This document shows, piece after piece, positions 28,695-55,214 of a DNA stretch of 64,000 nt. The DNA lies in the NCBI RefSeq assembly GCF_003050785.1, contig NZ_QAOH01000002.1:186001-250000 (forward strand), written 5' to 3'. Under the pieces are notes generated by a model. The model did not search any database, had not been told where the DNA came from, and was given only the letters and a program-made list of their open reading frames with translations. The stretch is from Celeribacter persicus. Its GTDB lineage: Bacteria; Pseudomonadota; Alphaproteobacteria; Rhodobacterales; Rhodobacteraceae. How positions within the stretch are numbered: position 1 is the first letter of the stretch; each line of letters begins with the position of its first letter. A program made the position numbers and the translations under genes.

Positions 28695-28734
28695 AACAAG
28701 ATGGCATAAATTATCGAATTTTTGTCGCTATCTG

Positions 28735-28776: not shown

Positions 28777-28798
28777 AACGATACGCACGAAAGATAAA

Positions 28799-31393: not shown

Positions 31394-31457
31394 CCCGTAC
31401 AGCTTTTCCTGAAATGTCCATTTAAAGATAATAATGTTCACAATACGGACAAATCAC

Positions 31458-32768: not shown

Positions 32769-32775
32769 GGCGATC

Positions 32776-34237: not shown

Positions 34238-34244
34238 GGCGCAT

Positions 34245-38583: not shown

Positions 38584-39414
38584 TTAGCGCGAAGACGCCA
38601 GAAAACGTCGGTTGAACCCGTTGCCAAGCAGGGTGATCCCCAGAACGGTCAGGCTCAGCAAAATGCCGGGAAAGAGGATCAGAGACGGGTGGATTTGAAA
38701 GAAAAGCTGGCCGTCGGCGATCACATTCCCCCAGCTCGGAATCTCAGGCGGAACGCCGGCGCCGAGGAAAGACAGCATGGATTCCGTGATCATTGCACTT
38801 GCCGCCACAAAGGTCAGCTGCACCATGACCGGGGCGATGATATTGGGCAGGATATGGCGCCACAGAAGCATCGGCAGCGTCGTGTTCATGGTGATCGCAG
38901 CCTCGACAAAGGGCTTTTCGCGCAGCGACAACACATGGGCGCGGACCACCCGGGTGACCCGCGGAATTTCGGTGATGGTGATTACGAACAGGATGTTCAT
39001 CAGGCTCGGCCCGGTCAACGCCATCATGGCAATCGCCAAAAGGATCGGCGGGATGGACATCAACCCGTCCATGACACGCATGATGACCCCGTCCGTGCCC
39101 CGCAGAAAGCTGGCAACCATGCCCAGAAACAGCCCCGCCACACCAGTAATGACAGCGACCGTCACCGCCACGATCAGCGAAATGCGCCCGCCATAGAGCG
39201 TCCGGCTCCAGACGTCCCGGCCCAGCATATCGGTGCCAAACCACGCCTCCGCCCCCGGAGCAAGCAGGCGTTTGGCCGGGTTTAGATGGGTCGGATCGAC
39301 CGTATGCCAGAGCGGCGCGCCTATGGCGGAAATTGCAATGAGGGTCAAAAGCAGCGCCCCGAGCCAGAGCGGAGGGTTGCGGCGGATTTCAGAAACCAGA
39401 CGGCGGAAAAACAT
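38584..39414 (-). CDS. ABC importer permease, DppC type
   Basis: A permease of about 276 residues with six predicted membrane segments and the EAA-type cytoplasmic loop (EAAITMNTTLPMLLWRHILPNI). The family motif FGTDMLGRDVWSRTLYGGR lies after the first loop. Two starts are possible: 39414 (MFFRRLV), 13 bases after the dppB-type stop with AGGGG upstream, and 39459 (MSSLTLASP), which overlaps that gene by 32 bases. I prefer the first. Confidence 0.9.
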   Translation of the reverse strand: MFFRRLVSEIRRNPPLWLGALLLTLIAISAIGAPLWHTVDPTHLNPAKRLLAPGAEAWFGTDMLGRDVWSRTLYGGRISLIVAVTVAVITGVAGLFLGMVASFLRGTDGVIMRVMDGLMSIPPILLAIAMMALTGPSLMNILFVITITEIPRVTRVVRAHVLSLREKPFVEAAITMNTTLPMLLWRHILPNIIAPVMVQLTFVAASAMITESMLSFLGAGVPPEIPSWGNVIADGQLFFQIHPSLILFPGILLSLTVLGITLLGNGFNRRFLASSR

Positions 39415-39427
39415 GCGATCGCCCCTG

Positions 39428-40369
39428 TTAATAGGTGATGCGAGGGTCAAAGACGACATAGCAGATATCCACCAGTAGATTGACGAGGATGTAGATCAGC
39501 GACATCAGGACAACGACGCCTTGAATGACGGGGTAATCCCGCTGAGAAATCGCATCGACGGTCAGCCGCCCCAGCCCCGGAATGGCAAAAACGGCTTCGG
39601 TCACGACAACCCCGCTGACCAGCGCGGCAAAGGTCATTCCGACCACCGTCACGATCGGCACGGCGGCATTGCGCATCACATGTCGGGCCACAAGGCGCGA
39701 CATGGACATGCCTTTGGAGCGTGCAGTGCGGATGTAATCCTGATCCAGCACATCGATCACCGCATCCCGGCTCACCCGGGCAATCCAACCGGCAAAGACC
39801 GGGGTCAGCGCGAGCGACGGTAGAAACATTTTCGACAGGAAAGGCCAAAGCCCTTCAGAGATCGGGGTGAATCCCATCACCGGCAGAAGATGCAGCTTGA
39901 GAGACAAGCCCCAGATCAGCAAATAGGCCAGCACGAAAACCGGCACGGAAAAGCCGAACACCGCCAGCCCTTCAACCAGCTTGTTCACAAGCCCACGCGG
40001 ACGCAGCCCGCCCCAGATGCCCAAAGGCAGACCAATCCCGACAGAGAGAACCATCGCACACACCGTGAGCGAAAGCGTCGCCTCAAGACGCTGTCCGATC
40101 AGCGTCACCACCGGCAGTTTGGTCAGGATCGAGGTGCCCAGATCTCCGGTCATGATCCCGCCGAGCCAGTGCAGATAGCGCAGGATGAACGGATCGTTCA
40201 GCCCCATCTGATCCCGGATCGCGTCGAGATCGGCAAGCGAGGCCTGATCCCCGGCAAGGACCCGCGCAGGATCGCCGCCCGCCAGCGCCATCAGGGAAAA
40301 AATGACAAAGGACACCACGAAAAGCGTAGGCACGGTCGCACCGATGCGTTTCAGAATGTAGGTTAGCAT
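39428..40369 (-). CDS. ABC importer permease, DppB type
   Basis: A 313-residue permease starting MLTYILKRIGATVPTLFVVS, which is the typical N-terminus. The EAA loop is DYIRTARSKGMSMSRLVARHVM and the periplasmic loop carries DPARVLAGDQASLAD. With the DppC-type gene it forms the membrane pore. It follows the substrate-binding gene after a gap that holds a strong hairpin. Confidence 0.93.
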   Translation of the reverse strand: MLTYILKRIGATVPTLFVVSFVIFSLMALAGGDPARVLAGDQASLADLDAIRDQMGLNDPFILRYLHWLGGIMTGDLGTSILTKLPVVTLIGQRLEATLSLTVCAMVLSVGIGLPLGIWGGLRPRGLVNKLVEGLAVFGFSVPVFVLAYLLIWGLSLKLHLLPVMGFTPISEGLWPFLSKMFLPSLALTPVFAGWIARVSRDAVIDVLDQDYIRTARSKGMSMSRLVARHVMRNAAVPIVTVVGMTFAALVSGVVVTEAVFAIPGLGRLTVDAISQRDYPVIQGVVVLMSLIYILVNLLVDICYVVFDPRITY

Positions 40370-40437: not shown

Positions 40438-42024
40438 TCACTCTTTCGTGGCACCCCAGAAGACCGGTGTCGAGGTCTTGTAGTTGAAGCCGACAAGCGA
40501 GGTCCGCATCGCCACCGGCTGTGAGAACACGCCCCAGAGCAGCGTTGGCAGGCTTGCCTGCGCCAGCACGTTGATCTGATCGACCATGTCCTGGCGTTTT
40601 GCAGGGTCGGTTTCACTGGTGAAGGCATCCTGAAGGGCGCGCATCTCTTCGTCACAGGACCAGCCGGCGTAGTCCATGTTACAGTTGTTGTTCAGGTAAA
40701 GATGCGCCACCGGCGACGAGGTGTCCATCGCCGAAAGATAGGAAATAAAGGCCGACCAGCCCCCCTCAGATACCGGGGCTTTCGAGGCGCGGCGTTCAAA
40801 GAGCGTGTTCAGATCCATCACGTCGACACGCACGGGAATACCCGCCTCGCCCAGTTCCTGCTTGATCACCTGAGCGGCGTTCACCGCCAGATCGTCATCA
40901 CTGGTCAAAAGTACCATTTCCTCACCGGCATACCCGGATTCGGTCAAAAGCGCCTTGGCCTTGTCTAGATCGCGCACTTTATATTGTTCACCGCCTTTAT
41001 GGGCCTCGAATGGCGTGCCGCAGGAGAAGAACGACGTACAATCAGGATCCTGATCCTCCGGAGACACACCTGCCCCGGTCATGATTTCACCACGGTCCAG
41101 CGCATAGGCCACGGCCTGACGCACCTTCGGATTGTCGAACGGCGGCTGCAAATGGTTGAAGCGCATCAGGCCGATGTTCCCGGCATTGGGGCCCGGATCA
41201 AGCACGTCGATATCGGGATTGGCACGCAGCACCGGCAAGAGATCGAAGGGCGGATATTGCAGGAAGTCGAGCTCGCCGGTTTGAATCCCCGCAATCTGCG
41301 AGGCGGCATCGGAGACCGACACCAGTTCGATCGGCGTCACAGCGGTCTTGTCTCCGAACATGCCCGACGGCGCCTCATCGCGTGAGACAAAATTCGGGTT
41401 CGGTTTGAAGACGGCCTTGCTGCCCGGCGCGAATTCGTCTGCGATGAAAAGATACGGGCCAGAGCCCAGAACCTCGGTATTCGCTTCGGTCACGGGCTTG
41501 TCGGCCAGCGCTTTCGGCATGATAAAGGGCACCGGCGAGCCTTCTTTCGAGAGGGCATCCAGAACCATGCTGAACGGCTTGGCCAGTTTCAGCTCGACAG
41601 TCAGAGGATCGAGCGCCGTCAGGCTTTCTGCCGCCGCCATCATCTGACCGCCCAGCCCGTCGCGCTGGCTCCAGCGGGTGATAGACGCCACGACATCGTC
41701 CGAGGTCACCGGCGTCTCATCCGACCAGATCAGCCCGTCGCGCAACACGAACGTATAGATCAGCCCATCGTCGGACACGGTGTAGCTGTCCAGCATCTGT
41801 GGCTTGATTTCGCCTTCGCCATCGCGGGCAAACAACGTGTCATAGACCATAAAACCAAAGGTTCGGGTGGCATAGGAAGACGAAGAGATCGGATCGAGCA
41901 CCTGCAGGTCACCCCCCAGGACCGCCCGGATCTCATCGGCGCGCGCCGCGCCGCTCAACGCCAATGTGGTCACCGCCATGGCAACCGACGCAGTCAACGT
42001 CTTTTTCAGTGTGTGCATGGTCAT
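40438..42024 (-). CDS. ABC importer periplasmic substrate-binding protein, family 5
   Basis: A 528-residue periplasmic binding protein with signal peptide (MTMHTLKKTLTASVAMAV, cleavage after SGAARA). The SBP family 5 markers are LGGDLQVLDPISSSSYATRTF, TLFARDGEGEIKPQMLDSY and YTFVLRDGLIWSDETPVTSDDVV. The first of two nearby ATGs has AGGAG 8 bases upstream. Relatives bind dipeptides, glutathione, opines and nickel chelates, so the ligand cannot be assigned. One of the three palindromic operators lies 87-105 bases before the start. Confidence 0.92.
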   Translation of the reverse strand: MTMHTLKKTLTASVAMAVTTLALSGAARADEIRAVLGGDLQVLDPISSSSYATRTFGFMVYDTLFARDGEGEIKPQMLDSYTVSDDGLIYTFVLRDGLIWSDETPVTSDDVVASITRWSQRDGLGGQMMAAAESLTALDPLTVELKLAKPFSMVLDALSKEGSPVPFIMPKALADKPVTEANTEVLGSGPYLFIADEFAPGSKAVFKPNPNFVSRDEAPSGMFGDKTAVTPIELVSVSDAASQIAGIQTGELDFLQYPPFDLLPVLRANPDIDVLDPGPNAGNIGLMRFNHLQPPFDNPKVRQAVAYALDRGEIMTGAGVSPEDQDPDCTSFFSCGTPFEAHKGGEQYKVRDLDKAKALLTESGYAGEEMVLLTSDDDLAVNAAQVIKQELGEAGIPVRVDVMDLNTLFERRASKAPVSEGGWSAFISYLSAMDTSSPVAHLYLNNNCNMDYAGWSCDEEMRALQDAFTSETDPAKRQDMVDQINVLAQASLPTLLWGVFSQPVAMRTSLVGFNYKTSTPVFWGATKE

Positions 42025-42110: not shown

Positions 42111-42128
42111 TTTTTCTTATAGGAAATT
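42111..42128 (-). promoter_or_regulatory. palindromic operator A, upstream of the ABC importer operon
   Basis: TTTTTC-TTATAG-GAAATT on the plus strand; the core TTTCTTATAGGAAA (42113-42126) is a 12-of-14 palindrome. The same core occurs at 48368-48381 and 51675-51688. It lies about 90 bases upstream of the binding-protein start. Confidence 0.7.
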
Positions 42129-42180
42129 TATCATCATTCCGTGAAACCCCTCATTTTGACCAAAGGGGCACGGTCTGCGA

Positions 42181-43323
42181 TCAAAATAGGGGCAGTGGCT
42201 GTTCCTCCAGACCGGCCGCCCATGTGGCGACCTCAGCGGTTGGACGATCCTCAAGCACCGCCTGCACCACACCTGAAGCGATCAGGGGGGCCAGCTTGAA
42301 ACCGTGACCGGAACAGGCCGAAATCGCAAAGCCGCGGGCACCGGGTTGAACAAGTCGGAATGTTTCATCATCCGTCACAGTGTAAAAACAGGCTTTCGGA
42401 TCGATGATCCGGTAGTCGTCCACATTGCGATAGGCCTTTTGCATCGCAGCCCAGATCGGCGCGATATCGTCATCGGTCGCCATCCGGTCCTCATCGGGAT
42501 TCCCCGTCAGCGAAAAGCGATGATCCCCGATTTTAAGCCGTGTCCCGCAACGCGGCGGCAGACAGTAAAGCCCCGCCTCCTTTTCCCGGACCACGACGAC
42601 GGGGGCGCTCTGCCAGCTCTTCATCAGCGTCGGCGGCGGTGCCAGATAGAGGACGGCCTGACGCGAGGGGACGGCGACACCGTCAAGCTCGGGCACCAGA
42701 CGACTGATCCACGCGCCCGCTGCGACAATCACCTTATCGGCCTCCTCAACCCCTTTGTCAGTCGTGATTTTCCCAGCTTCGGGGTCTACGGACTGCACTG
42801 GGGTAAAAGCGTTGAGCTCGACGCCCATCAGGGTCAGATGCACCACCAGATCAGTCAGAATCCGACGCGGAAACAACAGGCCCGAACCACCCACCTCAAC
42901 CGCACGGAAAATGCCATCGGGGTTCAGCACCGGTAAACGATCCGCCACCTCAGTCGCGCTCAGCTCCTTGCAGGGGACCCCCAGTTCAGCCAGCTGGCGG
43001 GTGGTGTTGTCATACCAGTCGTCTTCGTGCCGCAGCACATAAATACCGCCTGTCTCTTCGTAATGTCTGACACCCAGATCGGCCCAAAGCGCATCCCAAG
43101 CGCGAAACGCATCCGGCATCAACCGGGCATAACCATTGAGCTTGCCATAGGCATGGCGGTTGATCCGGTGTTCATCGAAGGACGAAGACACCGGGTTGGG
43201 GATCGGCCCCTGATCAAAAAGGCGGACTTTCACGCCACGCTTCGCCAGCGCCCAGGAGAGGCTCAGCCCCATGATCCCGGCGCCGACAACGATCACGGTT
43301 TCGACAGACGTTTTGCCCGACAT
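42181..43323 (-). CDS. sarcosine-oxidase-like FAD-dependent amino acid oxidase
   Basis: A 380-residue DAO-family flavoprotein close to monomeric sarcosine oxidase and N-methyltryptophan oxidase. The N-terminal FAD motif is VIVVGAGIMGLSLSWALAKRG. The cysteine that carries covalent FAD in this family is seen as Cys312 in DPKACFYTVTDDE, and the closing motif is ISACSGHGFKLAPL. It would oxidise an N-methyl or secondary/primary amino acid to an imine with hydrogen peroxide. The ATG abuts the HyuB stop codon (TGAATG), so it is the last gene of the lyase/HyuAB operon. Confidence 0.87.
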   Translation of the reverse strand: MSGKTSVETVIVVGAGIMGLSLSWALAKRGVKVRLFDQGPIPNPVSSSFDEHRINRHAYGKLNGYARLMPDAFRAWDALWADLGVRHYEETGGIYVLRHEDDWYDNTTRQLAELGVPCKELSATEVADRLPVLNPDGIFRAVEVGGSGLLFPRRILTDLVVHLTLMGVELNAFTPVQSVDPEAGKITTDKGVEEADKVIVAAGAWISRLVPELDGVAVPSRQAVLYLAPPPTLMKSWQSAPVVVVREKEAGLYCLPPRCGTRLKIGDHRFSLTGNPDEDRMATDDDIAPIWAAMQKAYRNVDDYRIIDPKACFYTVTDDETFRLVQPGARGFAISACSGHGFKLAPLIASGVVQAVLEDRPTAEVATWAAGLEEQPLPLF

Positions 43324-45057
43324 TCAGGCCTCCTTCACTTGCGGGTAATGGGCGCGGAGATAGTCCGCCGTATATTTTCCTGAGGTGCGGTCCCCCTCGA
43401 TGGCCAAAGCGTCGCGCTGCTCCGGCGCGCCATAGCCTCCGGCTCCGGCGGTTTCGACGGTCACCGCCTGTTCTGGCGAAACCCCGGTCAGGCCGGGTTT
43501 GGTGTCCATCGGCTGACGACCGGCATCACTGTCCAAAAAGAACCCGCCCTTGCCGCCTTCCGCCCCACCGAACACGCCCCATGGCGCGTTCAGAAAGCGT
43601 TCGCCCTGCCCGGTGAAAACCGCAGTATGACCGACCGGACGGATCGTCCGGCGCAAACCCAAGCCACCGCGATACATCCCCGCCCCACCGGAGTTTTCAA
43701 CGAATTCATAGGATTCGACCAGCAAGGGATATTCCGTCTCGATCGCTTCGACAGGCAGGTTCGACGTGTTGATCAGATGGACCTGAACCCCATCCTTGCC
43801 GTCTTTTGCAGCCCGGCCACCAAAGCCGCCGCCAACCGTTTCGAGATAGACGTAATCCTTGCCGGTCTCGGGATCGCGCCCAGAAAACACCACCATGGTA
43901 TTGGCCCCGTTAGCCGCCCCCACCGCTTTGTCGGGCAGCGCCGGCGCCAAGGCGCCCAGCACCACATCGATGACTCGCTGACAGGTATTGGCCCGCCCCG
44001 CCACCGCCGCCGGGAAAGCGGCACGCAACATAGACCCTTCGGGAGCCTCGATCTCGATCGCATCCAACATCCCCTGGTTCGAAGGAATATTCGGATCGAG
44101 AAGCGCCCGCATCGCGTAGACGACCGACGATTGCAGCGCCCGGAACGGCACGTTGATATTACCACGCACCATCGGGTTCGAGCCCTCGAAATCACATTGA
44201 ATCCGGCCTTCATGGGCCGGATCGCCCACGGTGACCGCCAGACGGATCGGTATATTCATCGCCCCGAACCCGTCATCATCCATGACGTCCTCGAAAACAT
44301 AGCGACCCGGCGGAATCTGCGAGATGGCATCGGTCATCCGGGTATAGGTTCGCGCAAGGATCTGTTCGAAAGCCTGCTCCAGCGCCGAGATCCCGTGGCG
44401 TTCGGCCAATTCATGAATGCGGCGCTCCCCCAATCGGCAGGCTGCAATCTGGGCGTTGTAATCGCCGCGCCGCTCTTCCGGCACACGGGCATTCAGAAGC
44501 ACCAGATCGAAAATGTCCTCATTCACCCGATAATCCGTCAACAACCGCACCGGCGGGATACGAAGACCTTCCTGATAGATTTCGGTCATGCCCCCCGACA
44601 TCGACCCCGGCGCCATACCACCAATATCGGCATGATGGGCGATGTTGCACATGAAGCACAAAAGCTTGCCATCCACGAAAACCGGCATGGAAAAATTCAC
44701 GTCCGGCAGGTGAGAGCCGTCTGCAACATAGGGATCGTTCGAAATGAAAACATCCCCGGGCCTGAACGCGTCGAGCGGATATTTCCGCAACAGCGCCCCG
44801 GTCAGCCCCAGCATGGAGGACAGGTGGATCGGCTGTGAACGTTCGCACAGGCTGATCATCCGCCCCTTGGGGTCGATCAGCGCCGTGGAATGGTCATTGC
44901 GCTCCTTGATGTTGGTCGAGAAGGCGCTTTTCATCAGGGCGATATAGGTCTCGTCCGCCACGGAACGCAGGCCGGACAGGATGATTTCCAGCGTCACGGC
45001 GTCCAATTCGGACGCATCGGCAAAGACGGGAGAGGTGATATAATCGGGTGCGGTCAT
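43324..45057 (-). CDS. hyuB: hydantoinase B / oxoprolinase family protein
   Basis: A 577-residue HyuB-family subunit. Characteristic motifs are SVADETYIALMKSAFSTNIKERNDHSTALID, FISNDPYVADGSHLPDVNFSMPVF, FMCNIAHHADIGGMAPGS and RANTCQRVIDVVLGALAP. HyuA and HyuB together open cyclic imides such as N-methylhydantoin or 5-oxoproline with ATP. It overlaps the HyuA stop by 4 bases (ATGA) and abuts the sarcosine-oxidase-like gene. Confidence 0.9.
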   Translation of the reverse strand: MTAPDYITSPVFADASELDAVTLEIILSGLRSVADETYIALMKSAFSTNIKERNDHSTALIDPKGRMISLCERSQPIHLSSMLGLTGALLRKYPLDAFRPGDVFISNDPYVADGSHLPDVNFSMPVFVDGKLLCFMCNIAHHADIGGMAPGSMSGGMTEIYQEGLRIPPVRLLTDYRVNEDIFDLVLLNARVPEERRGDYNAQIAACRLGERRIHELAERHGISALEQAFEQILARTYTRMTDAISQIPPGRYVFEDVMDDDGFGAMNIPIRLAVTVGDPAHEGRIQCDFEGSNPMVRGNINVPFRALQSSVVYAMRALLDPNIPSNQGMLDAIEIEAPEGSMLRAAFPAAVAGRANTCQRVIDVVLGALAPALPDKAVGAANGANTMVVFSGRDPETGKDYVYLETVGGGFGGRAAKDGKDGVQVHLINTSNLPVEAIETEYPLLVESYEFVENSGGAGMYRGGLGLRRTIRPVGHTAVFTGQGERFLNAPWGVFGGAEGGKGGFFLDSDAGRQPMDTKPGLTGVSPEQAVTVETAGAGGYGAPEQRDALAIEGDRTSGKYTADYLRAHYPQVKEA

Positions 45058-47099
45058 TGGTCGATCTCAATGATGAGGGACGCGTCTTCGGTCACCCGGG
45101 CGTGATCCCCCGGGAACAGAACCGTCGTTGTGTCGAGCTGTTCGATGATGGCGGGGCCCGCGATTTCCTGCCCGGCCTGGAAGCCGGTGCGGTCATAGAC
45201 TGGCGTGTCCACGGCACCGGATCGGTCGAACCAGACGTCGCGGCGCTCAAAGGGGTCCGGCACGCCACCCTCACCCGCCTCAAGCATACCGAACCGTGCG
45301 GCCGCATTGTGCCGCCCCGACGCAGCAAGCTGGACCGAAGTCACTTCGATCTCCGCCGTCTTATTATCGAAACCATAGGTCTGGCGATGCGCCTCGGAGA
45401 AGGCGTCGCGCAAGGCGCCGAGATCGAAAGGTGCCTCAGGATCGAAGGCCACCGGGATCTCAAAATTCTGACCTGCATAGCGCATGTCGAGCCGCGCTCG
45501 GATCACCCGCCCCTCTGTGCGCACCTCCTGTGAGGTGAACCAGCCATCGGCCTCTGCCGAGAGCACCGCCCAGGCGGGCATCAGCCGATCAGGCAAGGAC
45601 GCATCCAGCGCGCAGTGCAGCGGACGCACGAAATGTTCCAACTGATCGGCAACGATCAGCCCCTGCGCGCAGAGAATCCCCGGATGCGGCGGCACGACCA
45701 CACGCGGAATACTCAGCGCCCGCGCCACCGCCGAAGCGTGCAGCGGGCCCGCGCCGCCATAGGCGATCAGCGTCAGATTGCGCGGATCATAGCCCTTCTC
45801 GACCGAAATCGCCCGAATGCCACGCACCATGTTCACCACCGCGATGTCGATGATCCCAAGCGCTGTCCAGATGTGCGACAGACCGATCTTTTCGGCCAGA
45901 TCCGTAACCACGGCCTCGGCCAGATCCCGACGCATCGGCATATCACCGGCCAGAAGCCCCCTCGATGACAACCGCCCCAGGATGACATTGGCATCCGAGA
46001 CCGTTGGCAAATCGCCGCCCCGGTCGTAACAGGCCGGTCCGGGGAAGGCCCCGGCACTTTGCGGCCCGACTTTCAAAAGCCCGTCACTATCCACCCAGGC
46101 AATCGAGCCGCCGCCCGCACCGATGGCGTCGATATCGACCGAGGGCATCCGCACCGGATAGCCTTCGACCCAGCGTTCATTCACCGTGCGCGTCTGATAC
46201 TCCCAGATCAAAGCCACATCCGAACTTGTCCCGCCGATGTCGAGGCTGATGGCCGCCGGCTCGCCCGCGGCCTTCAGCTCATGCACCGCACCGGCCACCC
46301 CGGCGGCGGGACCGGACAAGGCGGTCCGGATCGGGAATTCGCGCGCCCGCGCAGCGGTGATCAGCCCACCGGAGGATTGGTTGATCCCAAGCGGTGTCTC
46401 TCCCGCAAGGTCGCGCACCCCGGTCTCCAGACTTTCGAGATAGGCATCGAGCACCGGTTGCAGACAGGCGTTCAGCACCGTGGTCGACAGCCGCTCATAT
46501 TCACGAAACTCCGGGCGCACCTCGCTCGACAGGGATACGGGAACCCCGGGCATCGCCGCTTTCAGCGCAGCCCCCAGAGCCTGTTCATGCGAGGGGTCGA
46601 GATGCGAAAATAGCAGACAGACCGCCACGGCATCGGGTTTGCTTGCCGCCACCTCTGTGACCACCCGGGCGATTTCCTCCGCCCCCAGCGGGGTCACAAT
46701 ACGACCGCCCCGGGTAATCCGTTCTGTCACTTCGAAACGCCGCTCCCGCGGCACCAGAGGCATTGGGAAATCTTTCTGAAGATCGTAAATCTCCGGTCGC
46801 ACCTGTCGCCCGATCTCCAGAAGATCACGGAACCCTTTGGTGACGATCAGACTGACACGACCGCCCTTGTTCTCGATCAGCGCATTGGTTGCGACCGTGG
46901 TGCCATGGGCGATCCGGTCGAACGCCATGGGATCGAGCCCGAATTTCTCGCAAAGCTCCATGATCCCGGCAAGAATGGCCTGCGACGGATTATGCGGCGT
47001 CGAGGGACGTTTGTGATAACAGGTCCGCCCTTCGTCAGGATTATGTGCGCAAAGGTCGGTAAAGGTTCCGCCGACGTCAATGCCAAGTGTCCAGCTCAT
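45054..47099 (-). CDS. hyuA: hydantoinase A / oxoprolinase family protein
   Basis: A 681-residue subunit with an actin-like ATPase fold: LGIDVGGTFTDLCAHN at the N-terminus, AHGTTVATNALIE, AGVAGAVHELKA and SLDIGGTSSDVALI in the middle, and the HyuA C-terminal domain ending LIIEIDQ. I start it at 47099 (MSWTLGI), with AGGAAAG upstream; a frame reaching 47180 adds 27 unlikely residues. It lies 14 bases after the ammonia-lyase gene. The target ring may be a hydantoin, oxoproline, or acetophenone-like compound in other members. Confidence 0.92.
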   Translation of the reverse strand: MSWTLGIDVGGTFTDLCAHNPDEGRTCYHKRPSTPHNPSQAILAGIMELCEKFGLDPMAFDRIAHGTTVATNALIENKGGRVSLIVTKGFRDLLEIGRQVRPEIYDLQKDFPMPLVPRERRFEVTERITRGGRIVTPLGAEEIARVVTEVAASKPDAVAVCLLFSHLDPSHEQALGAALKAAMPGVPVSLSSEVRPEFREYERLSTTVLNACLQPVLDAYLESLETGVRDLAGETPLGINQSSGGLITAARAREFPIRTALSGPAAGVAGAVHELKAAGEPAAISLDIGGTSSDVALIWEYQTRTVNERWVEGYPVRMPSVDIDAIGAGGGSIAWVDSDGLLKVGPQSAGAFPGPACYDRGGDLPTVSDANVILGRLSSRGLLAGDMPMRRDLAEAVVTDLAEKIGLSHIWTALGIIDIAVVNMVRGIRAISVEKGYDPRNLTLIAYGGAGPLHASAVARALSIPRVVVPPHPGILCAQGLIVADQLEHFVRPLHCALDASLPDRLMPAWAVLSAEADGWFTSQEVRTEGRVIRARLDMRYAGQNFEIPVAFDPEAPFDLGALRDAFSEAHRQTYGFDNKTAEIEVTSVQLAASGRHNAAARFGMLEAGEGGVPDPFERRDVWFDRSGAVDTPVYDRTGFQAGQEIAGPAIIEQLDTTTVLFPGDHARVTEDASLIIEIDQ

Positions 47100-47113
47100 C
47101 TTTCCTATCCCGC

Positions 47114-48307
47114 TTATACCGAAACGGCGCCGAAGTCGGCAAAATCCGGCAGGCCCGCGTCCGACAGATCCCGCGAGCACAACGCATCGTAACTGATGCG
47201 GTCCACCGGCCCTTCCGTCGCGATGACCAGAACCCGCGATTGTGACGTCAGCCCGATCCTGGCGCGTCGCTCCTCATCACGGCTCACCGCAACCAGACCG
47301 GCGAGCCCCGCGATCCCACTGTCACCGATCTCGACCGGCGCATCACCGAATGCGCCCTCACGGACGCCCTGCATGGTCCAGATCGCCATCGTGTCGGGGA
47401 TCGACATATAAGCATCCGTGCCGAAAGCAATGACCGGCCAGGCCACGCCCGAGACCTCGCCCACGGACAGGCCGGACATGATGGTATCAAGGTCTCCCCC
47501 GATCAGAACCGGCGAACCGGCGCGTGCGGATGCGATCAGACAGGCGGCCTCGACCGGCTCCACAATGATGAATTTCGGCGCATCAGTGCTGTTATCTCGC
47601 TCGCGCAGCCAACCTACCACCGCAGCCGCCAGACCGCCGCATCCCCCCTGAATGAACACATGGGTCGGCATATCGCACTGAGGCTTCGCCCCGAACATCT
47701 CTTCGAGCATCACACCGTATCCCGCCATGACATTGATCGGGTTTGGATTTTCGTTATTGGCCGTGTCAGGCACCAGCAACCAGCCGTTTTCGCGGGCCAT
47801 TTTATCCGCCGTCGCGGTGCTGAGATCGTAGTTTCCGTCAACCCGCACCACCTCGGCACCCTGTGCTTCGATCAACTCCTGTCGGTTCTGCGACACTCCG
47901 GCATGTAAAAAGACGATGCAGCGCACCCCCGCCTGTTTCGCCCCCCAGGCTAAAGACAACCCGTGGTTCCCGTCCGATGCCGTCACAGCGACCAGATCGT
48001 TCAGAGGTCCTTCATGTGCCTCCAATGCACGTTGCAGCGCATAGGCACCGCCAAGCGCTTTGAAACTGCCGATCTCAAAGCGATCCCCTTCGTATTTACA
48101 GAGAATCTCCTGCACGCCGCAGCGTTCGGCAAGTCCGGCGAAATCCAGAACAGGGGTCGGCCTATACCCGTCCCACTCGGTGATCCGTTCGACCGCCTCG
48201 CCTGCCAGACCATGCCCAACAATACGCTGAAGCGCTACGGGATAGGGCTGCCCTTTCTGCCGCAGGGTGCTGATATGGATATCGGGGCAAGGCAAACGAT
48301 TGGCCAC
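47114..48307 (-). CDS. PLP-dependent diaminopropionate ammonia-lyase-like protein
   Basis: A 397-residue fold-type II PLP enzyme of the DpaL/threonine dehydratase group. The PLP lysine is Lys83 in GSFKALGGAYA, the phosphate loop is in QGGCGGLAAAVVGWL, and VTASDGNHGLSLAWGAKQAG follows the family pattern. It would release ammonia from a hydroxy- or amino-substituted amino acid such as 2,3-diaminopropionate or 3-hydroxyaspartate. GTG start, with AGGAGAG upstream. It is the first gene of the HyuAB operon and has operator B 58-78 bases upstream. Confidence 0.83.
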   Translation of the reverse strand: MANRLPCPDIHISTLRQKGQPYPVALQRIVGHGLAGEAVERITEWDGYRPTPVLDFAGLAERCGVQEILCKYEGDRFEIGSFKALGGAYALQRALEAHEGPLNDLVAVTASDGNHGLSLAWGAKQAGVRCIVFLHAGVSQNRQELIEAQGAEVVRVDGNYDLSTATADKMARENGWLLVPDTANNENPNPINVMAGYGVMLEEMFGAKPQCDMPTHVFIQGGCGGLAAAVVGWLRERDNSTDAPKFIIVEPVEAACLIASARAGSPVLIGGDLDTIMSGLSVGEVSGVAWPVIAFGTDAYMSIPDTMAIWTMQGVREGAFGDAPVEIGDSGIAGLAGLVAVSRDEERRARIGLTSQSRVLVIATEGPVDRISYDALCSRDLSDAGLPDFADFGAVSV

Positions 48308-48365
48308 TGGATTCTCTCCTGATTAACTTTCTTATGCTTTAAGCGTTTTTTTCGATTTTGAAAGA

Positions 48366-48386
48366 TTTTTCTTATAGGAAAATTAT
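48366..48386. promoter_or_regulatory. palindromic operator B, between the lyase operon and the XRE-cupin gene
   Basis: TTTTTC-TTATAG-GAAAATTA on the plus strand, the best of the three palindromes (core 48368-48381, with flanking TTTT/AAAA symmetry). A second TATAGAAA lies 11 bases further (48385-48392), one helical turn away, so two dimers could bind. The regulator gene starts 180 bases to the right and the lyase operon 59 bases to the left. Confidence 0.75.
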
Positions 48387-48563
48387 AGAAATTCATTTGG
48401 TTGCATTTTCACTTGGAAAAAAATATCTTTCTGCGTGAAATTTCAGCAAAGTCGGCCAATTCACCCGGCCTGCGTCGGGAAGCCCCCGCTTTGCGATCAA
48501 TTGTGTTAAGACAGGAAGTGCCCTGCACGCGACAGGCATCGGGCAAGAACAGGCGACAAGACG

Positions 48564-49196
48564 ATGAGCAATAAAGAACTGACAGAAAAGCTCGGCACCC
48601 GGCTTCGTGAATGGCGGACCGTCCGAGGGCTCACCCTTTCGCAGGTCAGCGAGTCCACAGGGGTGGCCCCCTCCTCGCTTTCAAAGATCGAAAACGGTCT
48701 GGTTTCAGTCTCTTACCATACGCTCAAGCGTATCTGTGACGGGCTTGGAATGCCGATCGAGGACATCATCAACCCGCAACACCGCACCATCGCACCCGGG
48801 CGCCGCACCGTGACGCGCGATCAGGACGTGTCCTATTTCTCCTGCCCGCAATACATCTACGGTGTCCACGGCACCGATATCTCCCGAAAGGAAATGATTC
48901 CTTTGGAAATGGAAGTTCTGGCGCGCAGCCCGGATGATTTTGACGCCTGGAACCGCCACGAGGGAGAGGAATTGATCTATGTCCTCTCCGGCGAGATCGA
49001 AGCCCATACCGAATTCTATGCGCCAACCCGGCTCAAGGCGGGGGAGAGCATGTATTTCGACAGTTCCATGGGCCATATGTATGTTTCGGTCGGCGATCAA
49101 AACGCCCGCATCCTGTCGGTCTGTTATGATCCCAGGGCAGCTCAGGACAATCTGGACGACTTCCTGAAGGCCACCCCAATGGAAAATAAAGATTAG
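48564..49196 (+). CDS. XRE-family regulator with C-terminal cupin domain
   Basis: A 210-residue regulator. Residues about 10-65 form an XRE helix-turn-helix (TLSQVSESTGVAPSSLSKIENG), and residues about 105-195 a cupin sensor (RHEGEELIYVLSGEIEAHTEF, LKAGESMYFDSSMGHMY). The cupin carries histidine and glutamate (H-x-G-E-E) typical of metal or small-molecule binding. The gene is divergent from the lyase operon and convergent with the GMC gene, 22 bases away. Three copies of one palindrome near surrounding operons are the likely targets. No strong ribosome site is seen. Confidence 0.88.
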   Translation: MSNKELTEKLGTRLREWRTVRGLTLSQVSESTGVAPSSLSKIENGLVSVSYHTLKRICDGLGMPIEDIINPQHRTIAPGRRTVTRDQDVSYFSCPQYIYGVHGTDISRKEMIPLEMEVLARSPDDFDAWNRHEGEELIYVLSGEIEAHTEFYAPTRLKAGESMYFDSSMGHMYVSVGDQNARILSVCYDPRAAQDNLDDFLKATPMENKD

Positions 49197-49218
49197 AACT
49201 GAGGCCGCGCCCGCAGGG

Positions 49219-50838
49219 TCACAGACCCGGGCGCTCCGGTTTGGGCAGGCGATCAGGGTCTCCGTAGCGGATCGCCGCCGCGCCACGTTCCCCGATCATC
49301 ATCGCCGGCGCATTGGTATTGCCAGAAACGATAGAGGGCATCACCGAACAATCGACCACCCTGAGCCCGTCGAGCCCACGCACCCGCAGATGTTGGTCGA
49401 CCACCGCCATCTCGTCCGTCCCCATTTTACAAGTGCCGACCGGGTGGTAATCAGTCTTGGCCATGTCTTTGACATAGCGTGCAACAGCATCGAAGCCCTG
49501 TGCTTCGGGACCCGGAAACACCTCGCCGTCATGGAGATCCGCAAAAGACGGCGCGTTCATGATCGCCCGCCCCAGCTCGATCGCGGCAACGTTGTGGGCG
49601 ATGTCGTCCGGGTGAGAGAAAAAGTTAGGATCCACCTTCGGCGCGTCTTTCGGATCGGTCGAGGCCAGCCGCACCTCGCCGCGGCTTTTGGGCCGCACAT
49701 AGGAACAGAGCACGGTGACCGCATGTCCCTCAATCCCCTGATGCGAATCAAGCGCAACCGGCATGAAATGCAGCTGGACATCCGGCCAGTCCTCGTTCCC
49801 TTCGGAGCTGTAAAACGCCCCGCCTTCGCAGGCATTCGACGTGGCAGGACCGGTTTTAAACATCATGTATTCAAGCCCGTGCACCGCCATATGCAGGCCT
49901 TTGTCATGCCCGGTGTAAGAGATCGGCTCTTTGATTTTCACGCAGACATAGGCATCGACATGGTCATGGAGATTCTTGCCCACCCCCGGCAGATGATGCA
50001 CCGGCTCGACCCCATCGGAAGCCAGCTCCGCACGGTCTCCAACCCCGGACAGCATCAGAAGTTTTGCGGTGTTGATCGCGCCAGCTGAAAGAACCACTTC
50101 CTTCTTCGCAAGGATGCGCTCCACCCCCTGATCCGTAACGATCTCGACCCCGATGGCACGCGTCCCCTCGAAGATCACCCGCTTGACCAGCGTCTCCGTC
50201 CGCAGCGTCAGGTTCCTACGCCCCGCCATCGCCGGATAAAGATAAGCATGTGCCGAAGAACAGCGCTCGGCATTGCGCTGCGTCACCTGATAGAGCCCGG
50301 CCCCGCTTTGCGTTTCACCATTGAAATCAGTATTGTATCTAAGCCCCGCCTCTTGCGCTGCACGCACGAAAAGCCGCGATAGCGGACTGGGAGAAATCTG
50401 ATCGGACACACCAAGCGGACCACCGGCGCTGTGAAACGCATCGACAAGCCGCTCGTTATCTTCGCAGGCCTTGAAAAAAGGCAGAACATGATCCCAGGAC
50501 CACAAATCGTTGCCCGCTTCGGCCCATGCGTCATAATCGCGCCGATTGCCACGGATATAAACCATGCCGTTCACGGCGCTGCCGCCCCCGACCATTTTGC
50601 CCTGCGCCATCGGCACGGAACGACCGTCCGCCGCGCCCTGCGGTTCGGTCATCCATTCCCAGCGGTGCTTGTCACTTTGCAGCTTGGCAAACCCCGCGGG
50701 CCAGCGCACGAAAATGGAATCGTTGTGACGACCGGCTTCAATGATCAGAACCGACGTCTCCGGATCTTCGCTCAACCTTGAGGCGACGACACAGCCAGCA
50801 GACCCTGCGCCAATCACGATATAGTCGAAGTCTTTCAT
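49219..50838 (-). CDS. GMC-family FAD-dependent alcohol dehydrogenase/oxidase
   Basis: A 539-residue choline dehydrogenase-like flavoenzyme. The N-terminal motif is DYIVIGAGSAGCVVASRLSEDP, GMC signature 1 is in MAQGKMVGGGSAVNGMVYIRG, and the second signature is VLSAGAINTAKLLMLSGVG. The catalytic histidine lies in DYHPVGTCKMG and the asparagine in VSGNTNAPAMMIGE. The ATG at 50838 (MKDFDY) has AAGG upstream. It starts 20 bases after the SDR gene, forming a two-gene operon. Confidence 0.9.
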   Translation of the reverse strand: MKDFDYIVIGAGSAGCVVASRLSEDPETSVLIIEAGRHNDSIFVRWPAGFAKLQSDKHRWEWMTEPQGAADGRSVPMAQGKMVGGGSAVNGMVYIRGNRRDYDAWAEAGNDLWSWDHVLPFFKACEDNERLVDAFHSAGGPLGVSDQISPSPLSRLFVRAAQEAGLRYNTDFNGETQSGAGLYQVTQRNAERCSSAHAYLYPAMAGRRNLTLRTETLVKRVIFEGTRAIGVEIVTDQGVERILAKKEVVLSAGAINTAKLLMLSGVGDRAELASDGVEPVHHLPGVGKNLHDHVDAYVCVKIKEPISYTGHDKGLHMAVHGLEYMMFKTGPATSNACEGGAFYSSEGNEDWPDVQLHFMPVALDSHQGIEGHAVTVLCSYVRPKSRGEVRLASTDPKDAPKVDPNFFSHPDDIAHNVAAIELGRAIMNAPSFADLHDGEVFPGPEAQGFDAVARYVKDMAKTDYHPVGTCKMGTDEMAVVDQHLRVRGLDGLRVVDCSVMPSIVSGNTNAPAMMIGERGAAAIRYGDPDRLPKPERPGL

Positions 50839-50858
50839 TGGCTCGGCCTTCCCTATTG

Positions 50859-51611
50859 TCATACCAGACAGACACCGCCGGTCGTATTGACGGCTTGTCC
50901 CGTCATGAACCCTGCCCCATCGGAACAGAGAAACAGTGCCACCGGCACCACATCCTCAACGCTTTCCAACCGCCCCATCGGGGTCATCGCGACGTATTCT
51001 TCGCGGATATGATCGGCAGAGACGCCGCGCCGCGCCATGTCCCAGCCGATTTCCCGGACCTGCATACCCGTCTCGGTAAAGCCCGGACAGATCACATTGG
51101 CGCGCACGCCCATCGGCGCCACTTCTCTGGCCAAAGACTGGGTCCAGCCGATCACCCCCGCCTTCGAAGCCGCATAGGCGCCGAACAACGGCGGACCGAT
51201 CTTGCCAGCCATCGCAGAGATATTCAGAACACAGCCATGCCCCTGCGCCGCAAAACGTTTCATCGCCTCAGCATTGGTCAGCCAGACCCCTCGCAAGTTG
51301 GTGTCGATCGCAGCATCCCAATCCGTCTCGGTGATCTCAAGCACGCCGCCCATCGACGACACCGCCGCAGAACAGACAAGAATGTCGAGCACCCCGATCC
51401 CGGCGAAGCCTGCCGAGACACTCTCCTTGTTGCGCACATCCATGAGAATTTTGCGCTCCGTCGCCAAAGGCGCGGCCTGAAGTGCCTCCGCGTCGATATC
51501 CGCGATATAGGTCTCAGCGCCTTGTGCCTCGAACGCCCGCGCAAGAGCAAGGCCGATTCCGGCTGCGCCGCCAGTCACAAGGACAGTTTTCCCACCAAAT
51601 TCACAAGTCAT
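50859..51611 (-). CDS. short-chain dehydrogenase/reductase
   Basis: A 250-residue classical SDR. The cofactor motif is TVLVTGGAAGIGLALARAF, the acidic residue IADID after strand beta2 favours NAD, the catalytic serine and YxxxK appear in NISAMAGKIGPPLFGAYAASKAG, and the C-terminus is GFMTGQAVNTTGG. I take the ATG at 51611 (MTCEFGGK), the family's usual start; another ATG (51629) is possible and no strong ribosome site decides. With the GMC gene it likely oxidises an alcohol in two steps. Operator C lies 60-80 bases upstream. Confidence 0.88.
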   Translation of the reverse strand: MTCEFGGKTVLVTGGAAGIGLALARAFEAQGAETYIADIDAEALQAAPLATERKILMDVRNKESVSAGFAGIGVLDILVCSAAVSSMGGVLEITETDWDAAIDTNLRGVWLTNAEAMKRFAAQGHGCVLNISAMAGKIGPPLFGAYAASKAGVIGWTQSLAREVAPMGVRANVICPGFTETGMQVREIGWDMARRGVSADHIREEYVAMTPMGRLESVEDVVPVALFLCSDGAGFMTGQAVNTTGGVCLV

Positions 51612-51672
51612 CAAAGTGCCAATCTGCATGATTTTCGGCAATATGATATTGTCATTCAAAAATTTGCAAGTT

Positions 51673-51690
51673 TTTTTCGTATAGGAAAAA
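51673..51690 (-). promoter_or_regulatory. palindromic operator C, upstream of the SDR/GMC operon
   Basis: TTTTTC-GTATAG-GAAAAA on the plus strand, core TTTCGTATAGGAAA at 51675-51688. It shares the TATAGGAAA half with operators A and B exactly. GGAAAAATATTTCC (51684-51697) adds a second overlapping inverted repeat. Confidence 0.7.
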
Positions 51691-51838: not shown

Positions 51839-52435
51839 TCAACCCAGATGACGCCGCACCAGCGTCTGAACACGGGCAAAGGCGGTCTCGGCAGCGGCAA
51901 TCGCGCGGACCTCTTCCGCCTCGTTCAGCACGACCCCGTTCAGCGTCTCCTTGAAGGCCTTCCAATAGGGTGCGCGCCCCTCGGGCGGCTCGGCCAGATG
52001 CCGCGCGCCATGGGCTTCGGACAGCCCCATCTTCTTGGCGTATTTAAGCAGGAAAGCCGCGCCGAGGTTCGATCCCTCGACCACGTAGAGCCAACCCAGA
52101 GCTTCGGGGACGCCAAGGCCTTCCGGGCTGGCTGTCGCGGGGGCTTCGTCATAGTCCGGGGCCTTCAACCCGAGATCGGCCAGATCCTGGCCCACCGCCT
52201 CAAGGCGACAACGTCCTGTCAGCCCCGGAAAAAGACCCGCCAGATCGGATTGCTCATAGAGCGGCGCGACATCGCGGTGAATGCCGTGTTGAACCGCGAG
52301 AAAGCGACCGTAGTTCTCGACGCTCTCGAATGGTTTGGCTGCCATGATCGACTGATCGAGCTGCTCATGTGTCGGATGCGTCGCCGCGCGCAGACGGTCG
52401 GAAAGGAGTGCGGGGATGGTGGTTTGTGTGTTCAT
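51839..52435 (-). CDS. biliverdin-producing heme oxygenase
   Basis: A 198-residue heme oxygenase that cleaves imported heme to biliverdin, carbon monoxide and iron. The proximal histidine is His23 in RAATHPTHEQLD, and the distal helix with its glycine kink is GWLYVVEGSNLGAAFLLK. It is most like bacterial HemO/PigA-type proteins. It is the last gene of the FecI-FecR-receptor operon, 57 bases after the receptor stop, which fits iron recovery from heme. Confidence 0.9.
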   Translation of the reverse strand: MNTQTTIPALLSDRLRAATHPTHEQLDQSIMAAKPFESVENYGRFLAVQHGIHRDVAPLYEQSDLAGLFPGLTGRCRLEAVGQDLADLGLKAPDYDEAPATASPEGLGVPEALGWLYVVEGSNLGAAFLLKYAKKMGLSEAHGARHLAEPPEGRAPYWKAFKETLNGVVLNEAEEVRAIAAAETAFARVQTLVRRHLG

Positions 52436-52492
52436 GTCGAGCCTGTGAGAAAGGAAAAGAAACCGGGCGCGGCGACACGCCCGGCCATGGGA

Positions 52493-55105
52493 TCAGAAGG
52501 TGGTCGTCAGACCGACGCGGAAGGTCCGACCGGGCGCAGGAACGGCATTGGCATATCCGCTGCCGATATCGAGATAGTATTGGTCGGTCACATTCTCGAC
52601 GCTGAAGTCGATGCTGAATGTCTCATTCACCTCATAACTGCCGAAAAGATCGACCGTCGAATATGGAACATTGATGTATTCCACATAGTTGTAAGGTTCG
52701 CCGTTCATCCAGTAAGCCGTGTCGAAAGCGCTTTCGGTCACCTTGGTGTAACGCACGCCCAGATCCAGCTTTTCTTGCATGAAGCGCGCACCAAGCGTCA
52801 GCACATGCATGAATTCCGGGGCGCTCGGGATACCATAGGCATCATTGATGCCTCCGGAGAAGCCGGGATGGCAGCCGACGATATCGTTTCTGGAAGGCGA
52901 GAGCGGGGAGCCGCACAATTCCGCTTTGGTGTAGTGGGTCAGGCTGTACTCCGTATAGACCCGGCCCATATCGTAATTCAGCGCCAGTTCGATCCCGCGA
53001 TAGGTCAGGCTCGGCATATTGGCAAACCCCGGAAAATAGCCGTTACCGCTGATGTAGTCCGTATATTCCTTGTCGAAGTAGCTGATCTTGGCGCCAAGGA
53101 AATCCCCGCTGCGCCACAGATCACTGCCACTATAGGTCAGGCCGATTTCCCAACTGCGCAGTTTCTCCGGTCGGATTGCCGCGCCATCAGCATTCGAGTT
53201 GCGCAACAGCTCCTCGCGCGCAGTCGGCGCGCGCCAGCCGTCCGCGAAACTGGCGAAAGCCTGTGCACCCTGCCAGGGCAGAGATGCCGTCAGGGCGAAA
53301 TTATAGCTATTGCCCGAACCATCGGAATTCATCACCGAAGACGCATTTGTGCCCAAGGTCGATGACGGGTCCCTCTCCAGTTCATAGCGGTCATGACGCA
53401 CCCCGGCCTGAGCGGAGAGCCAGGGAGTAATATCCGTGTTCAGATTTGCGTACAGACCAGTTGTTTCCCGCGTCGAACCGGTCACATCGCGCGACCCATC
53501 GGAACCACCGCCACTGGCCGTTACCCTGTCCCGCATGAATTGTGCGCCGAAGGTCAGGCTGCTGCTGCGTGAAAAGAGATCGAAACGGCTGGTATTTTCC
53601 ACTCGAATCCCGGTCGTCTCCGTTTCCGAATCCTGACCGATTGCAGCCCGGTACTCGTCAATCGTGCCACGCCAGACATCCACGCTCAGATCAATCAGAA
53701 GACTGTCCTGCGGAACCCAGTTCCAATGCAACCCGTAGGTTTCCTGATCCGTCGTGCTCGGAGCGTAATAGGGCGTGTAGCGCGCAATTTCGTAATTGGT
53801 TGCCCGGAAGCTGCCATACCAGCTGTCGTATTTGCTGTATTTCAGTTCCAGCGTCTGATCGTAGCCAAGATCAATTTCCGATTTGACCAGATAGCTTTCC
53901 GTTTTACTGAATGTCCCGAAGGCCTCGCTGTCGGGATGGAAAATCGTCAGGTCGTCATACCCATACATGTACGACCCATCCGCGAAATAATACGTCCGGG
54001 GAATTTCACCATTCGAACCGGTTTCGTAATTGCCGTTTTCGCGACGAGCATACCCGAAGGTAAAGGCCAGCCGATCGTTCGGCTGCCATCCGGCCAGGAG
54101 CGAGGCGGCATAGTCGTGTCCCGGAACACCTTCCCGATAGGCCGGATCAAAAGCGGCATATGCTCTTCTGTGGGCTTCCCCGAGGCAATAATCCGGCGCC
54201 GTGTCCGTTCCGTCACAAGAATCGAACCGGCTTCCGTCACCATCGGCCTGCCCGAAGGACAGCCGGGTTCTGATCCCCCAGGCCTTGCCCTCTTTGATCA
54301 GATCATCCGCGGAATATGTTGCCATCGCGATCCGCCCACCGATGGCGCTGCCCCCGGTCATGGCGGTGGATTTGTTGACCTCGTAGCCCGCTATGAAATC
54401 GGGATCGAGATAGAATTGCGTCGAAGTCCCCCCGTAACCTTTGTAGACCGAGGAGGAGTTTTCCATTCCGTCCACGGTCAGGCTCACCCGCCCCATGCCC
54501 TGAGCGCCGCGAATGTTCGGGTCGACGGACATGGTCGAGTGGTTGTTTCCCGCAATGACCCCCGGCACGCCGTCGAGAATATCCCCGGTGCTGCTCGGAG
54601 CGACCCGTCCCAGCATTTCGCCGTCCACGGTGAATGTCGCGCCGGGCTCGGAATAGGTGGCCTCAGAGGAAAAGCCCCCGTGGACCGTGATCGGATCGAG
54701 CATGATACCATCGACGGGAAGATCGGCGCTCCCGGCCTGTCCCGTCGCGCCACCGGTGATGCTGACCGTGTTGGCATTGGTGAAGCGATAGCTCAGCCCG
54801 GTGCCGGAAAGCAGGCGGCTCAGCGCCGCGCGCGCGCTCAGAGGTCCGTTCACCGCCGGGCTTTGCAGCCCTTCTGTGATCCGGTCGTCAACGAACACCT
54901 GCAACCCGCTGATGCGCGAAAACTGTACCAGCGCGCGCGAAAGCGGCTGGGCGGGAATGGCATAGCTTTGTTGTGCGGCAACATCTTGCGCCATGGCGGG
55001 CTGGATGGCCACGGGGCCAGCCAGCGCCGTACTCAGCAACAGGATTGTCGCGATACGGCAGGTCTGCCCATGTCGCGTGCCGTCTTTCTTTCGGGGGCCT
55101 CTCAT
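52493..55105 (-). CDS. TonB-dependent heme/hemoprotein receptor with STN signalling domain
   Basis: An 870-residue outer-membrane receptor. Signal peptide to about residue 41 (QPAMAQ), STN domain about 48-95 (AQPLSRALVQFSRISGLQV), plug about 150-260 with VPGVIAGNNHSTMSVDPNIRG, then a 22-strand barrel ending in FRVGLTTTF. The heme-receptor FRAP-like box appears as WRAPTAREEL and the NPNL-like box as IRPEKLRSWEIGL, but I see no histidine between them, unlike HemR-type receptors. I prefer the ATG at 55105, which has AGGAAGGA upstream, over one 8 codons earlier. It follows fecR and precedes the heme oxygenase. Confidence 0.88.
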   Translation of the reverse strand: MRGPRKKDGTRHGQTCRIATILLLSTALAGPVAIQPAMAQDVAAQQSYAIPAQPLSRALVQFSRISGLQVFVDDRITEGLQSPAVNGPLSARAALSRLLSGTGLSYRFTNANTVSITGGATGQAGSADLPVDGIMLDPITVHGGFSSEATYSEPGATFTVDGEMLGRVAPSSTGDILDGVPGVIAGNNHSTMSVDPNIRGAQGMGRVSLTVDGMENSSSVYKGYGGTSTQFYLDPDFIAGYEVNKSTAMTGGSAIGGRIAMATYSADDLIKEGKAWGIRTRLSFGQADGDGSRFDSCDGTDTAPDYCLGEAHRRAYAAFDPAYREGVPGHDYAASLLAGWQPNDRLAFTFGYARRENGNYETGSNGEIPRTYYFADGSYMYGYDDLTIFHPDSEAFGTFSKTESYLVKSEIDLGYDQTLELKYSKYDSWYGSFRATNYEIARYTPYYAPSTTDQETYGLHWNWVPQDSLLIDLSVDVWRGTIDEYRAAIGQDSETETTGIRVENTSRFDLFSRSSSLTFGAQFMRDRVTASGGGSDGSRDVTGSTRETTGLYANLNTDITPWLSAQAGVRHDRYELERDPSSTLGTNASSVMNSDGSGNSYNFALTASLPWQGAQAFASFADGWRAPTAREELLRNSNADGAAIRPEKLRSWEIGLTYSGSDLWRSGDFLGAKISYFDKEYTDYISGNGYFPGFANMPSLTYRGIELALNYDMGRVYTEYSLTHYTKAELCGSPLSPSRNDIVGCHPGFSGGINDAYGIPSAPEFMHVLTLGARFMQEKLDLGVRYTKVTESAFDTAYWMNGEPYNYVEYINVPYSTVDLFGSYEVNETFSIDFSVENVTDQYYLDIGSGYANAVPAPGRTFRVGLTTTF

Positions 55106-55214
55106 CCGATGGTCCTTCCTCGTTTTCATTCTGTCCCACGAGGCGCTTCACGCGCCTTCACAAGGTCTGACCCGCGAGAAAAGAAAGGTAATTAATAATT
55201 TCTTATATTTTTTA

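Follow-up and report, generated by a model that had tools for sequence, protein, structure and literature searches.

A palindrome repeated before three operons points to a local XRE-cupin regulon in Celeribacter persicus

A candidate XRE-cupin regulon is described here from a 64,000-nucleotide stretch of the Celeribacter persicus genome (NZ_QAOH01000002.1, positions 186,001 to 250,000; the window), in which three copies of a 14-base palindrome precede three minus-strand operons. These operons, delimited by strand and spacing, encode an ATP-binding cassette (ABC) importer; a pyridoxal phosphate (PLP)-dependent lyase (PALP) with the hydantoinase/oxoprolinase-type proteins HyuA and HyuB and a DAO-family flavoenzyme; and an SDR dehydrogenase with a GMC oxidoreductase. 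The palindromes are very probably the operators of P0001, the XRE-cupin transcription regulator encoded at 48564–49196 on the plus strand, which would repress all three operons until a ligand binds. The regulon appears to be real, specific, and local, and it recurs along with its regulator in three further genomes; it is a new example of an ordinary type. It unites three operons of seemingly unrelated enzymes in a single pathway that can be put to the test, given a candidate regulator, a defined 14-base site, and four genomes for comparison. The regulon could also lead to the substrate, since compounds that free the regulator from DNA or induce the operons could be picked out by screening.

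The core of the palindrome, TTTC(T/G)TATAGGAAA, occurs at 42113–42126 (site 1), 48368–48381 (site 2), and 51675–51688 (site 3), exactly where a first-pass annotation had placed it, and spans 14 bases rather than the 16 given there. Read on the plus strand, sites 1 and 2 are TTTCTTATAGGAAA and site 3 is TTTCGTATAGGAAA. Site 1 lies 88 bases before the ATG (42024) of the gene for the importer's solute-binding protein (SBP), within the 156-base gap separating the DAO gene from the importer operon. Site 2 is separated by 60 bases from the GTG (48307) that opens the PALP-HyuA-HyuB-DAO operon and, in the other direction, by 182 bases from the divergent regulator gene. Site 3 precedes the SDR gene by 45 or 63 bases, depending on whether its start is the ATG at 51629 or at 51611 (the listed SDR open reading frame, ORF, begins at a TTG upstream of the site). 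The proposed placement upstream of three operons therefore stands, with distances (45–88 bases) somewhat shorter than the estimated 60–105. The regulator gene sits in the middle, divergent from the central copy as had been described, and its 210-residue product carries the expected domains (Pfam HTH_31, 5.6e-14; HTH_3, 2.9e-11; Cupin_2, 6.1e-13), namely, the N-terminal XRE-type helix-turn-helix (HTH) and C-terminal cupin by which the XRE-cupin class is recognized.

Identity, uniqueness, and position of the sites can be read directly from the DNA. A scan of the genome (4,299,547 bases, 94 contigs) with the exact pattern TTTCNTATAGGAAA returned three matches, which are sites 1–3, all inside 9.6 kb; the reversed control pattern returned none, and 0.012 copies would be expected per 4.3 Mb on both strands given the dinucleotide composition of the window. 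Many unrelated genomic copies had been named beforehand as grounds for abandoning the proposal; all three of the three exact copies lie at this locus. The symmetric form TTTCNTATANGAAA likewise matches sites 1–3 alone without mismatch, and with one mismatch finds eight more places scattered across the genome, five of them inside automatically called ORFs that are 440 aa or longer; tblastn with the unit genes found none within the 3.2–3.6 kb around any of the eight. At up to two mismatches, 75 matches compare with 59 for the reversed control, an excess so small that specificity is confined to the strict motif. A relaxed pattern, TTTCNNATANGAAA, hits seven places in this genome, comprising sites 1–3 and four from the one-mismatch list. 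Within the window, no further match exists at zero or one mismatch, in line with the earlier search by eye, nor is there a fourth site upstream of the gamma-glutamyltransferase-family gene (GGT) discussed below. One two-mismatch match, at 32284, was discarded, being located inside a Rieske oxygenase gene, and a regulator paralog in the same genome (G000:C2:67384, 39% identity) was set aside, with no site at up to one mismatch in the surrounding 3.6 kb (L122). A search of the open-access literature found no occurrence of the 14-mer in five forms.

Regulator, HyuB, and motif coincide in the same three relatives, which supports assignment of the palindromes to an XRE-cupin regulon. A search of genome contigs retrieved regulator orthologs from Afifella sp. 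IM 167 (69% identity) and Propylenella binzhouense (61%), which belong to two families of Hyphomicrobiales in the NCBI taxonomy, as well as a distant homolog from a Niveispirillum metagenome-assembled genome (L036, 36%). Extension to 397 genomes of Afifella's order added one further ortholog (genome G1018, 69%), with the next best match at 48%, such that identities of 61–69% occur in only 3 of the 397. HyuB singled out the same three genomes at 77–82% and then dropped to 60%. Nearer to the window, HyuB reached 42% at best in the matches reported from 19 other genomes of the genus. For the regulator, the highest identity was 43% among candidates scored (E up to 1e-42) in 393 other sampled genomes of the family and, the window itself aside, 47% in a sample of 385 genomes drawn from the class. 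As these order, genus, and family searches reveal, the unit is patchily distributed, and its regulator and enzymes travel together, a co-occurrence most simply accounted for by horizontal transfer. Plasmid carriage was considered and rejected: 140 plasmid records matched the regulator and 147 the lyase, all below 60% (best among the matches listed, 44.8% and 43.5%, respectively), and no plasmid record matched as closely as the Afifella or Propylenella orthologs did. The open-access literature searched yielded no alphaproteobacterial XRE-cupin regulon.

The motif also accompanies the unit at these orthologous loci. Genome-wide, TTTCNNATANGAAA matches twice in Afifella, once in Propylenella, and twice in G1018, and one match per genome precedes a unit gene. 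In Afifella, the orthologous PALP-HyuA-HyuB-DAO operon is neighbored by the GGT gene, and TTTCGCATAGGAAA lies 41 bases upstream of the latter. The sole Propylenella match, TTTCTCATAGGAAA, lies 62 bases before a gene for the TRAP protein DctP, with DctM, GMC (76% identity), PALP (66%), HyuA (73%), HyuB (82%), and DAO (76%) coming next in the same orientation, a run that groups GMC with the Hyu genes independently of the window. The G1018 counterpart, TTTCTCATAAGAAA, is found about 40 bases before DctP and 13 kb from the regulator gene. The pattern was relaxed with knowledge of the Afifella match, which is therefore no independent test; Propylenella and G1018 are. By rough calculation, the joint chance for these two genomes under random placement is about 3.5e-4 for one match per genome within 60 kb around the regulator and about 2.2e-7 for matches within five 300-base promoters, the latter list having been drawn up with knowledge of the gene set. 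A matrix built from the window sites alone was then scored on 10 upstream regions from the three genomes against 2000 Markov resamples, the regions having been selected following a preliminary run whose matrix incorporated them. Strong sites precede Afifella GGT, G1018 DctP, and Propylenella DctP (0 resamples as good in each case) and G1018 GGT (1 of 2000). A strong site before a unit gene is thus present in all three genomes with a 61–69% ortholog.

Related palindromes also occur near some more distant XRE-cupin genes. The upstream regions of homologs L077 (47% identity), L108 (44%), and L106 (48%) contain sites equaled by 0, 2, and 4 of 2000 resamples, respectively. A related palindrome, TTTCCTATACGAAA, stands just upstream of the XRE-cupin gene at L005/L077 (47%), and two copies of TTTCGTATCGGAAA are found just upstream of that at L033 (37%); L033 and L006 both display twin palindromes with an altered centre. 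Of the 43 homolog loci L005 to L047, five have the generalized form TTTC-N6-GAAA no more than 400 bases upstream of the stretch that was matched. When 12 relatives' genomes were scanned with TTTCNNATANGAAA, six (G792, G793, G1018, G145, G799, and G057) contained a match within 20 kb of a regulator homolog on the same contig.

Several results weigh against this assignment of the palindromes. Between PALP and the XRE-cupin gene, where the window has site 2, G1018 (12/2000) and Afifella (28/2000) offer only degenerate matches, and the matches before Propylenella GGT (19/2000) and the Propylenella XRE-cupin gene (38/2000) are weak. Sites are absent from the Afifella DctP (325/2000) and G1018 GMC (1716/2000) promoters, as well as from the Propylenella DAO2/AraC region with the first matrix, this region having been left out of the window-only run. 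Orthologous loci that retain the regulator but have lost the motif had been proposed as a refutation; such loss is seen at these individual promoters, including the degenerate PALP/XRE regions, and not at the level of whole loci. Four strong, four weak, and two siteless regions argue that the link between regulator, motif, and pathway is conserved and that individual promoters have gained or lost sites. Beyond the orthologs, the 47% relative L107 has no upstream site (761/2000); G267, G363, and G091 possess TTTCNNATANGAAA matches but none near the regulator homolog, and G106, G843, and G1010 have no match at all. Homolog loci from the window's own family carry TTTC-N6-GAAA within 400 bases upstream in only 1 of 34 cases, and these 34 homologs, at 36–43% identity, look like a different regulator group. 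A promoter scan gave no match at site 1, and the AlphaFold model of the regulator was too poor to use (three-row alignment, mean pLDDT 63, pTM 0.44).

Some further observations concern these intergenic regions and more remote loci. The PALP-XRE intergenic regions of Afifella and G1018 (L034 and L103) share a degenerate TTTCC(A/T)ATACGCTAAA and a second common block, ATTTTTC followed by ATGCAATATG. An integrase-core (transposase-like) ORF (L035:9061–9759) lies directly upstream of the Propylenella XRE-cupin gene and may explain the absence of a clear site there. TTTC-N6-GAAA sequences (TTTCTTATTGGAAA, TTTCCTATCGGAAA, TTTCCTATGGGAAA, and TTTCCTATGTGAAA) also precede family 5 SBP genes at L083:12518, L084:9108, L085:11737, and L086:1445; these genes are 34–38% identical to that of the window and come from G145 and G267, which represent another family and possess XRE-cupin homologs. 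At L108:10766–11902, a DAO-family gene diverges from the 44% XRE-cupin homolog and is preceded at 10658 by a degenerate TTTCCAATAGTAAA, a possible second XRE-cupin/DAO pair.

Mechanistically, P0001 is probably a local, ligand-released repressor, by analogy with XRE-cupins of Pseudomonas aeruginosa; direct binding, repression, and ligand release are inferred. A dimer of the regulator, or a pair of monomers, would bind each palindrome near the operon promoter and repress transcription. The pathway substrate or an early intermediate would then fill the cupin domain, causing the regulator to leave the DNA, and the importer, lyase, HyuAB, flavoenzyme, SDR, and GMC genes would be expressed together; site 2 may additionally autoregulate the regulator gene. 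All 11 aligned homologs conserve H132, E136, and H171 of the regulator, residues that align with the His, Glu, and His of hydroxypropylphosphonic acid epoxidase, which we take to be the iron ligands of that enzyme. Given this alignment, a metal held by the regulator might mediate ligand sensing.

A different sign of regulation is the strongest competitor to repression: the palindromes could be operators at which the XRE-cupin protein serves as an activator or has an effect that varies from site to site, a possibility to which we assign a small but real likelihood. The sign cannot be read from sequence, and a scan of 12 kb (seven promoter-like matches vs 4.0, sd 2.1, in shuffles) placed no match over site 1 or, on the operon strand, over sites 2 and 3. 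A minus-strand match near site 3 (51655–51628) is situated downstream of it, overlapping the possible SDR start at 51629, and the 88 bases between site 1 and the SBP start would suit an upstream activator too. Against activation, site 2 falls within a plus-strand match (48358–48386) directed toward the regulator gene, an arrangement that would suit a repressor, if only at this site, although such promoter-like matches are no evidence of function. Moreover, the P. aeruginosa XRE-cupins with determined regulons are all repressors of one or two neighboring targets, PauR excepted (PMC7901475). Repression by P0001 consequently remains the preferred account.

Binding of the palindromes by another protein, whether the AraC-type regulator at 27666–28694, the IclR-type regulator at 34245–34958, or a distant factor, is considerably less probable. 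An AraC-type homolog (49%) does adjoin the XRE-cupin gene in Propylenella, but the stretches read from Afifella and G1018, where strong sites are kept, yielded no homolog of either the AraC-type or the IclR-type regulator (E up to 1e-4), and the related palindromes described above stand upstream of some distant XRE-cupin genes. In addition, three HyuAB/TRAP clusters (HyuB 58–60%) contain neither an XRE-cupin homolog nor TTTCNNATANGAAA in 19.9 kb each; PALP, DAO, and GMC are likewise missing from these clusters at the threshold applied, so they serve as a weak control only, and one of them (L135) contains a single TTTC-N6-GAAA with a different centre. Finally, AT-rich intergenic DNA (GC 0.43 across the three site-bearing regions) favors runs of T and A, yet it is barely conceivable that the copies are chance occurrences or a dispersed repeat without regulatory role, since three were found against 0.012 expected, they are tightly clustered, sites precede genes of the same unit in three relatives, and the flanks of the three copies, AT-rich throughout, are otherwise dissimilar by eye.

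The products of the presumed XRE-cupin regulon were assigned by domain searches. The importer operon comprises the family 5 SBP (40438–42024; Pfam SBP_bac_5), two permeases (39428–40369 and 38584–39459; both BPD_transp_1), and two ATPases (37577–38572 and 36585–37580; both oligo_HPY), all on the minus strand. In the central operon, also on the minus strand, the lyase (47114–48307; Pfam PALP) belongs to the diaminopropionate ammonia-lyase family, passing NF006058 (345.5 bits, cut-off 276) and failing the stricter TIGR03528 (245.0 vs 532.25) and TIGR01747 (219.9 vs 274). It is followed by HyuA (45054–47180) and HyuB (43324–45057), both identified by Pfam, and by the DAO-family flavoenzyme (42181–43323), for which N-methyl-L-tryptophan oxidase is the best NCBIfam model with a score below cut-off. 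The third minus-strand operon encodes the SDR dehydrogenase (50859–51629) and a choline-dehydrogenase-like GMC oxidoreductase (49219–50862). Convergent with the importer operon, the GGT gene (34987–36588, plus strand; strong Pfam G_glu_transpept match) is 66% identical to the Propylenella gene and 55% to that of Afifella and is present with the unit in all four genomes; its TIGR00066 score (309.8, with 351.5 for Afifella) is below the cut-off of 357.85.

In view of the HyuAB-type hydrolase, PLP-dependent lyase, DAO flavoenzyme, and gamma-glutamyltransferase encoded by the conserved unit, the pathway probably handles a small nitrogen compound. This would be an amine or amino acid, conceivably in gamma-glutamyl linkage, and would pass through a cyclic amide. 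The gene content suggests gamma-glutamyl transfer or hydrolysis, cyclic-amide opening, PLP-dependent elimination, and amine or alcohol oxidation, not necessarily in this order. We put forward, as a speculative and rather doubtful proposal, that this is an undescribed catabolic pathway, patchy across bacterial families, in which one compound is degraded by GGT-family, HyuAB, diaminopropionate-lyase-like, DAO, and GMC enzymes, in some cases with a copper amine oxidase, under a sensor that is maybe metal-bound. The trio of gamma-glutamyltransferase, hydantoinase, and diaminopropionate ammonia-lyase was not found together in the open-access literature.

Other genes flank the unit. At 27666–30757 on the plus strand, the AraC-type regulator gene is followed by a copper amine oxidase gene; a homolog of the latter (43%) is located between GGT and DAO in G1018 (L103:1654–3552), and the AraC homolog of Propylenella was noted above. 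As homologs of both sit at relatives' loci, these two genes may belong to the same pathway as the unit. Directly upstream of GGT, a plus-strand group (31434–34958) encodes the Rieske oxygenase (LigXa_C-like), a flavoprotein of the pyridine-nucleotide-disulphide-oxidoreductase family, and the IclR regulator, none of which has homologs in the relatives' stretches read. Beyond the SDR gene, heme oxygenase and TonB-dependent receptor genes occupy 51839–55129 on the minus strand.

Comparison with known systems places the unit close to several characterized families. HyuA and HyuB share their Pfam domains with the HyuAB/caprolactamase/5-oxoprolinase family, and unlike caprolactamase CapAB they score 500.4 and 251.8 with NF050156 and NF050157, well short of the cut-off of 1000. 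PuuR and PauR, which control polyamine catabolism through gamma-glutamylation, have the same domain architecture as P0001, and a GGT-family gene is likewise nearby in the window; the best NCBIfam model for P0001 is indeed PuuR (NF007408), at 44.0 bits against a cut-off of 211, and P0001 is therefore not classed as PuuR. The closest parallel is offered by P. aeruginosa PsdR, ErfA, PA0535, PA1359, PA1884, and PA4987, which (PMC7901475) combine an XRE HTH with a cupin, a palindrome (motifs were obtained for three such regulators), few targets beside the regulator gene, metabolic functions, and local units possibly moved by horizontal transfer, and which are thought to release DNA on sensing a metabolite. 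Here, unlike in those repressors, one motif would serve three separate operons, with HyuAB, a PLP lyase, DAO, SDR, and GMC among their products. With a candidate palindrome in the intergenic region beside its own gene (site 2, 182 bases) and few local targets (three exact candidate sites; weaker ones elsewhere are possible), the unit fits the Pseudomonas XRE-cupin pattern as far as can be judged at the sequence level.

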